In this document: piece after piece, positions 29,720-31,708 of the stretch
Layout of the letters: each line of letters begins with the position of its first letter
How positions within the stretch are numbered: position 1 is the first letter of the stretch
NCBI RefSeq assembly: GCF_022458985.1
Contig: NC_061782.1
Location: 22,085,672-22,149,671 of the forward strand
Direction: 5' to 3'
Source: Mugil cephalus
Lineage: Eukaryota; Chordata; Actinopteri; Mugiliformes; Mugilidae
DNA length: 64,000 bases
Translations under genes and position numbers: made by a program
The notes under the pieces: model-generated
Database searches by the model: none
Seen by the model: only the letters and a program-made list of their open reading frames with translations
What the model was told of the DNA's origin: nothing

Positions 29720-31708
29720 TCAGAAGAGGTAGTATTCTGCATGGTACTGCAGTCTCTCTCTGTCCAGTTTCTTCTGTTTCATTCTTCTGTTCTGGAACCA
29801 AATCTTCACCTGCCTAGAAAACCATGGGAATAGGATAGGAAAGGTGTGAAATGTGATATCTTGGTGTTCAGGTGGAGACAGACTTAATTTAAAAACACAA
29901 ACATTCAAAGTTTTGTTTTCCCCTTTTCAAATTATAAAATAAAACTGCCATTTTAATGTATCTTGCTATCACACTTCTTAGACAGATGGGATTAATGTGA
30001 AATTCAACTATTAAAACAGATGACTGAAGTCACTTCTTTCATATTGCTGTGTTCCAGGAGGATATGCACAGGATCAAATTTCATTTCTAAATACAGTAGG
30101 AATTCCACACAACTTCCTGCAACATTAAAGTCAACATTTATAATAAATATGATTATTTGTATTTAAACCTATTAAGTGCATCATAATATAAAACTAAAAA
30201 TTAGGAATAAATAAGCCACACTGGACAAATTAGCTGCCATTTATTTTCCAGTCAACATCACCATTAACTGACTAGTTTTAGAGCTTATTGTTACAAATTA
30301 GGGTTTTCACTGTTGTGCATAAAATAATTAAGGCCAGTGTTTAAATAGTGGGTTCCTCTTCCAGAATCAGAAACTAAAGAAGTGCGTTTGATGGTAAAAT
30401 AATAATAATAATAATAATAATAATAATAATAATAATAATAATAATAATAATGATAACAATAATGATAATGAAGTAACAAAGGAGATGTAATTAAATATTA
30501 ATGTTAATAATCCGTCCACATAGAAGTGCTGCACTGCAGTCTGTATCGTAGGATGAATAACCCAATGATGAGAGGAGAACAAAGTCATTTACCCTCATCT
30601 GAAGTGCCTGAGCAGTTTGTCTTTACCGAGGTGTAACTTCTGAGTGTCAGTCTAGTGTAACTGTTTTTTTTTTTATTTTTACAATGAGGAAGGGTTATAA
30701 CACACACACACCGGTCTGTCAGGTGCAGAAGACACGAGAGCTGAACGCGTCTGTCCTTGTTGATGTAAATGTTGCAGAGAAACTCCTTCTCCAGCTCTCT
30801 GATCTGATGCCTGGAGTAAGGACAACGCTTCTTCCTCTTCACATCGGATTCTGACAGATAGATAGATAGATAGATAGATAGATAGATAGATAGATAGATA
30901 GATAGATAGATAGATAGATAGATAGATAGATAGATAGATAGATAGATAGATAGATAGATAGATAGATGAGCTAGAATGTGATATTCTGTTTCCTTAGTAT
31001 ATAAGCAAAATAGAAACATAAACCAGAATGAAACCACTTGCTACTCATTAAAATCTCACCTGTGCAGTTATAAGACTCACTCGGTTGGCTGCAGTTTCCT
31101 CCACTGCTGCTTGACAACAGCGCATCCTCCTCTCCCTCCTTCCCGGCCCGCGGTGACTCTGACCCCGCCCTCACCTCGCTGCTCTCTCCGCGATGACAGC
31201 TCCTCCACTCGGTCCTTTTGGTCTCCCTTTCCCTCTGGTTTTTAGGTGTAAATTCCCTCGGCGGAATAGTTCTGCTCTGGCCTACCGACGAGAGAAGGTG
31301 TGAGTCCGGACTGAACGCAGAGTGTTTGCCGTACAAACTTCGTGCATCCAACATCTGTGCGTAAAAGTGAGAGGAAGCGCCGTAAACCTCCCCGCCGTAC
31401 ACAAGTCTGTTCTTATTGCTGGAGACGGATACCGGCGGATATGGTGAGCCATACTCATGGAAAACAGCTTCCCGCGCCAGGTTAAAAAAGGTCGGGGACG
31501 GAGAGATGAGGGGTTGATCCGCCTGGTTCGGGGCCACTGTGCCCGGAGGATGCTGCACAGGCTCATGGTAGCTGTAGCCGCGCAACTCGGGCTGTCCTCT
31601 CGAAGCGGTGCTATAGTCCAACAAAACGGTGCCTTTCTCCACTAAAAACTGCGGAGAAACGGAGCCAAAGTCAGACCGTGGCACAGAGACGCACCTTGGT
31701 AAATACAT
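29720..31708 (-). CDS. hoxd11b: Homeobox protein Hox-D11b, three exons with split homeodomain
   Basis: Posterior Hox transcription factor of paralogue group 11, 293 aa. Exon 1 is 31060-31708, exon 2 is 30712-30850 and exon 3 is 29720-29813. It starts [14 protein letters not shown], matching the group-11 MYLP opening; an in-frame TAG ten codons upstream leaves no earlier start. [11 protein letters not shown] (about residues 77-87) resembles the group-11 VREVAFRDYG block. The homeodomain is residues 221-280: [20 protein letters not shown], then [14 protein letters not shown], and in exon 3 [20 protein letters not shown] with the tail [26 protein letters not shown] and DRLQY-like endings mark group 11, not 10, 12 or 13. 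Oddities: a second intron (29814-30711) splits the codon of homeodomain Arg43, and homeodomain positions 36 (Cys for Arg) and 39 (His for Asn) differ from other group-11 proteins. Intron 1 is only 209 bp and more than half microsatellite. Confidence 0.92.
30398..30451. repeat. (AAT)n microsatellite in hoxd11b intron 2
   Basis: About 18 AAT units, followed by interrupted TGATAACAATAATGATAATG. It lies in the intron that splits the homeodomain. Confidence 0.95.
30857..30967. repeat. (GATA)n microsatellite next to the hoxd11b exon 2 splice acceptor
   Basis: About 27 perfect GATA units. On the transcribed strand it is (TATC)n and ends six bases before the acceptor CTGTCAG, so the repeat itself forms the pyrimidine-rich tract of the splice site. 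It takes up over half of intron 1. Confidence 0.97.

Follow-up and report, generated by a model that had tools for sequence, protein, structure and literature searches.

Vertebrates have been described as gaining introns only very rarely (PMC3151243). A gain within a Hox homeodomain makes a clean marker whose age could be determined. The closest described cases concern the same gene in the same cluster. An additional intron of hoxd11b is already in print for Tetraodon (PMC2080641), and a third HOXD11B exon is mentioned for the stickleback Apeltes (PMC9525239); both exceed the usual two exons. For Gasterosteus, HOXD11B splicing was validated from cDNA, and HoxDb genes have been linked to the number and length of dorsal spines in sticklebacks (PMC9525239). 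The hoxd11b passages of PMC2080641 and PMC9525239 make no mention of the intron position. More generally, no statement of an intron at Arg43 in phase 2 was found in the passages of the literature that were covered, which included few of the subscription papers on the Hox clusters of pufferfish and medaka.

Older homeobox introns are also known: in posterior Hox genes, the homeobox is split by a second intron in vertebrate Hox14, lamprey Hox13beta, and amphioxus Hox11, Hox12 and Hox14 (PMC3707753). The preliminary description of the present locus regarded the vertebrate Hox homeobox as normally unbroken; Hox14 and lamprey Hox13beta are exceptions. Lineage-specific intron gains in ray-finned fishes have also been reported in other gene families, for MC2R/MC5R (PMC3151243) and slc26a1/slc26a2 (PMC12357937).

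Identity and genomic setting of the gene

We analysed a 64-kb window (the whole stretch of DNA under study) of the Mugil cephalus genome. In a homeodomain tree of 7 rows and 60 columns, the hoxd11b homeodomain clustered with the Hox11 rows, apart from one Hox10 and one Hox9 row, with a support of 99/98. The tree did not place it beside hoxd11a and left the nearest paralogue without resolution; its assignment as the b copy is thus due to the cluster setting. On one side of the gene lie hoxd4b (recognized by its homeodomain and named by eye), a mir-10 precursor and hoxd9b, which matched the Pfam families Hox9_act and Homeodomain. The position of mir-10 is as expected in a Hox cluster:

8361-8435, mir-10 precursor between hoxd4b and hoxd9b (57.4 bits)

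Beyond hoxd11b there are frames of lunapark and a nicotinic receptor, three of the five frames tried scoring above the Pfam cut-off; lnpb and chrna1b are the two genes described upstream of HoxDb (PMC2080641). The Hox11 grouping and the HoxDb setting together bear out the earlier naming of the gene as hoxd11b. The window also contains a tRNA match of 68.7 bits between mir-10 and hoxd9b (19352-19423, minus strand) and, at 54075-54989 on the minus strand, broken frames that resemble a Tc1-type transposase, as judged by eye from the translations. The AxE spine enhancer of sticklebacks sits between hoxd9b and hoxd11b (PMC9525239); the corresponding stretch here is 25822-29717.

Gene structure

The gene is encoded on the minus strand by a complete reading frame in three exons, and the spliced protein comprises 293 amino acids. 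A correct three-exon model matters for the annotation and for any knockout of the gene. Its parts are as follows:

31708-31060, minus strand, coding part of exon 1 between its MYLP start and the donor, an open frame of 649 bases
31059-30851, minus strand, intron 1 (209 bp), placed 5′ of the homeobox as is usual in Hox genes
30850-30712, minus strand, exon 2, N-terminal arm and homeodomain helices 1-2, the last bases being CG of the Arg43 codon
30711-29814, minus strand, intron 2 (the extra intron), 898 bp, GT-AG, phase 2, 31% G+C
29813-29721, minus strand, exon 3, final base of the Arg43 codon, helix 3 and C-terminus, with the stop codon at 29720-29718
29813-29810, minus strand, GCAG, a competing acceptor supplied by the Gln44 codon

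Exon 1 and the short intron 1 follow the usual Hox layout, and the exon 1 donor (CAG/GTGAGA) ranks first among the 114 GTs on the coding strand of 29601-31708. As to the N-terminal region that is conserved in Hox11, the MYLP start resembles the starts of hoxa11a and hoxa11b. No Pfam family was matched over exon 1, and its best tblastn match to the paralogues was a weak one to hoxd11a (E = 0.078). A small intron early in exon 1 (donor 31694, acceptor 31648) was considered and dropped, as by eye it led to an immediate stop in the frame. Within intron 1, a perfect tetranucleotide repeat of 28 copies (AGAT on the plus strand; 30856-30967) occupies 112 of the 209 bases; it stops five bases short of exon 2 and acts as the pyrimidine tract of that exon. 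Variation in the length of this repeat could influence splicing.

The extra intron in the homeobox

The 3′ end of exon 2 at 30712 reads ...CTGACAGACCG, and exon 3 begins at 29813 with GCAGGTGAAGATT. The first bases of the intervening intron are GTGTGTGTGT and its last bases TTTTCTAG. Of the two donor placements that we tried, this was the only one to keep the frame. Because W48 is displayed as residue 47, the split Arg is residue 43 of the homeodomain, and the intron is in phase 2. When spliced, hoxd11b matched the Pfam Homeodomain over positions 1-57 of 57 with 74.3 bits; when exon 2 was read through into intron 2, the match covered only 1-44 of 57, with 39.3 bits.

Splice sites were scored with a hand-written splice matrix. 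On the coding strand of 29601-31708, the acceptor of intron 2 ranks third among 147 AGs and the donor fifth among 114 GTs; the four GTs that outscore it are the intron 1 donor and three within coding exons. Over the whole window and both strands, 124 of 7471 GTs score at least as high as the donor, and 152 of 7863 AGs at least as high as the acceptor. With so many equally good candidates, splice sites alone are insufficient to prove an intron. By this matrix its sites are plausible, it has GT-AG ends and the frame is kept, which agrees with a spliceosomal intron; what proves intron 2 is the exact restoration of a conserved domain. At the level of the sequence, the extra intron that splits the hoxd11b homeobox is confirmed as real.

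The split at Arg43 in phase 2 stands as first described, whereas the placement of the intron between helices 2 and 3 probably needs a small correction. Helix 3 of the homeodomain spans residues 42-58, and we take Arg43 of hoxd11b to be in its first turn. Among the best 60 of 118 matched sequences of solved structures, the closest was Hox-A9 (1puf, E = 9.3e-25) and none was a Hox11 protein. The donor of intron 2, CCG/GTGTGT, is moderate and does not have the proto-splice form MAG/R. The gained intron 140c of stickleback MC2R likewise sits at CCG/GT (PMC3151243).

Other Hox11 genes in the genome

We searched the genome (634.8 Mb, 24 contigs) for homeoboxes, and 104 matches were obtained from 150 scored of 170 candidates. 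The homeobox of hoxd11b appears as two pieces, both on contig C13. Four other group-11 homeoboxes were found on C1, C11, C12 and C14, and in each of them the whole homeobox is open. These unsplit paralogues share 71-74% identity with hoxd11b. An intact, single-exon hoxd11b elsewhere would have spoken against the intron; within the candidates scored there was no unsplit copy of this gene, the only unsplit group-11 homeoboxes being the four paralogues.

We also searched for an acceptor in the same codon, using the exact pattern Q-V-K-[I/M/V]-W-F-Q-N after YAGN, which covers genes with those words. It occurs at five places in the genome. Four lie inside unbroken homeoboxes (where, by eye, Arg is encoded by AGR), and the remaining one is hoxd11b. 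None of the four other Hox11 genes carries the split, which places the gain of the intron on the hoxd11b branch; the earlier view of it as a gain relative to other Hox11 genes is supported.

Origin and history of the gain

Our main reading, to which we give a probability of roughly 0.9, is that this is the three-exon HoxDb gene hoxd11b of a percomorph-type fish, whose Arg43 intron was gained on the hoxd11b branch, inherited, and is spliced out. The insertion of a spliceosomal intron into the codon of Arg43 would postdate the teleost genome duplication that parted hoxd11b from hoxd11a and probably predate the split of the pufferfish and stickleback lineages, the present gene having inherited it. 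The spliceosome would then remove intron 2 to give an ordinary, complete homeodomain, and the intron as such would most likely serve no special function. This reading draws on the gene structure and frame, the Hox11 membership, the cluster setting, the selection on helix 3 described below and the unsplit homeoboxes of the four other Hox11 genes; we infer the use of the junction in Mugil cephalus and the date of the gain.

Given the reports on Tetraodon and stickleback, the extra intron is probably not private to the Mugil cephalus genome, so that the lineage-specific gain proposed earlier applies to the hoxd11b branch as against other Hox11 genes, but probably not to this lineage. The third stickleback exon could in principle lie upstream. 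It is likely that pufferfish and stickleback have the intron at the same site through shared origin. The extra intron is nothing new in kind, and most likely an oddity inherited by one fast-evolving gene. As a discovery it adds little past its exact position; the elements that have possibly not been reported are the exact site of the intron and the competing acceptor 4 nt downstream, from the Gln44 codon.

Selection and possible inactivation

An alternative is that the 898-bp insertion inactivated the gene, making hoxd11b a pseudogene or the source of only a homeodomain without helix 3. The gene has been lost in medaka and cichlids (hoxd11b passages of PMC2080641) and in ocean sunfish, its exon 1 hardly aligns with the paralogues, and the donor of intron 2 is moderate. 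Its homeodomain also evolves quickly: in residues 2-43, hoxd11b shows 12-13 nonsynonymous codons, compared with 0-2 among the other four Hox11 genes. This agrees with the placing of percomorph hoxd4b, hoxd9b and hoxd11b among quickly evolving branches (PMC4166920). From residue 58 on, constraint was not significant (P = 0.073 to 0.46). Together with the fast homeodomain, this leaves some slight room for a recent decay of hoxd11b.

However, all three exons are open and the frame is restored exactly. In codons 44-57 of exon 3, each of four comparisons with other Hox11 genes showed one nonsynonymous and 4-6 synonymous differences (P = 0.00016 to 0.0038, with 0.83 nonsynonymous expected without constraint; the four comparisons are not independent). 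Changes in the helix-3 codons are mostly synonymous, so through much of its history the gene has had exon 3 translated as helix 3. The codon comparisons show purifying selection on this segment, which does not in itself prove present use. In sticklebacks, moreover, embryos and fin folds express the gene (PMC9525239). Inactivation is therefore very unlikely in our view.

Possible truncated products

The preliminary description also held that intron retention allows a truncated protein. On paper, the predicted frame of this hypothetical product can indeed be read: it would add 41 residues past Arg43 and stop inside the last intron, so that decay triggered by a downstream exon junction is not expected. 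It is also conceivable that intron 2 has been kept as a regulated switch, in which retention, internal polyadenylation or the AG of Gln44 would yield a short protein with helices 1-2 and no DNA-reading helix. With the splice matrix used above, the score of the Gln44 acceptor is 8.0 and that of the first acceptor 9.14, and splicing before 29809 would produce CGG TGA, an immediate stop in the last exon. Two AATAAA words and one ATTAAA lie within the intron, and the stickleback paper speaks of isoforms in a general way (PMC9525239). On paper, each of the three routes would give a homeodomain without helix 3. Nevertheless, we found no data on isoforms, read-through can be drawn on paper for many last introns, the AG of Gln44 is a by-product of the codon, and AATAAA words are common in A+T-rich DNA. 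We consider such a switch very unlikely. The same holds for its specific form, in which the paired acceptors TAG/GCAG/ and the internal AATAAA would switch RNA processing in fin tissue that expresses HoxDb, a protein lacking helix 3 competing with the full protein.

Relation to the old homeobox introns

The amphioxus Hox11 exon 2 primer given in PMC3534614 translates as N-L-T-D-R-Q, which means that amphioxus exon 2 includes Gln44 and that the intron of that gene is displaced 3′ by 4 nt or more. In contrast, hoxd11b is broken within codon 43, so its position is not that of amphioxus Hox11, and for this reason a gain on the hoxd11b branch would be a separate, later insertion near the old site. 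Some of the gained introns of fish slc26 genes also lie at or near intron sites of other family members, a closeness similar to that seen here (PMC12357937). That intron 2 is itself the ancient posterior-Hox homeobox intron (as in amphioxus Hox11/Hox14, vertebrate Hox14 and Abd-B), retained in this gene alone after a shift of 4 nt, is highly unlikely. Ancestral posterior Hox genes have been inferred to carry a homeobox intron (PMC3707753), and its site is close by. But the amphioxus exon runs through Gln44, and the remaining Hox11 lineages would have had to lose the intron separately, among them the four further Hox11 genes found in this genome.

Sequence of the gained intron

Two notothenioid slc26a2 introns are transposon-like (PMC12357937), whereas no such feature was detected in intron 2. 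Searched against the genome with simple repeats skipped, the whole intron matched one place, itself (one candidate). Within 40 bases of both junctions and with shifts of up to 12, no word of 5 or more bases was shared, and no target-site duplication was detected; the longest shared word was 4 bases, a length reached by 1983 of 2000 random 80-mers. A transposon-derived intron 2 was set aside on these two grounds, although an old element may have decayed. Compared with the window, intron 2 gave its self-match, three 14-base words at E = 0.58 and nothing else. Compared with the flanks, its best match lay downstream of the gene and covered 21 bases at 90% (E = 0.023), which we take as chance in A+T-rich DNA. 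Intron 2 also includes an (AAT)24 tract at 30398-30469.
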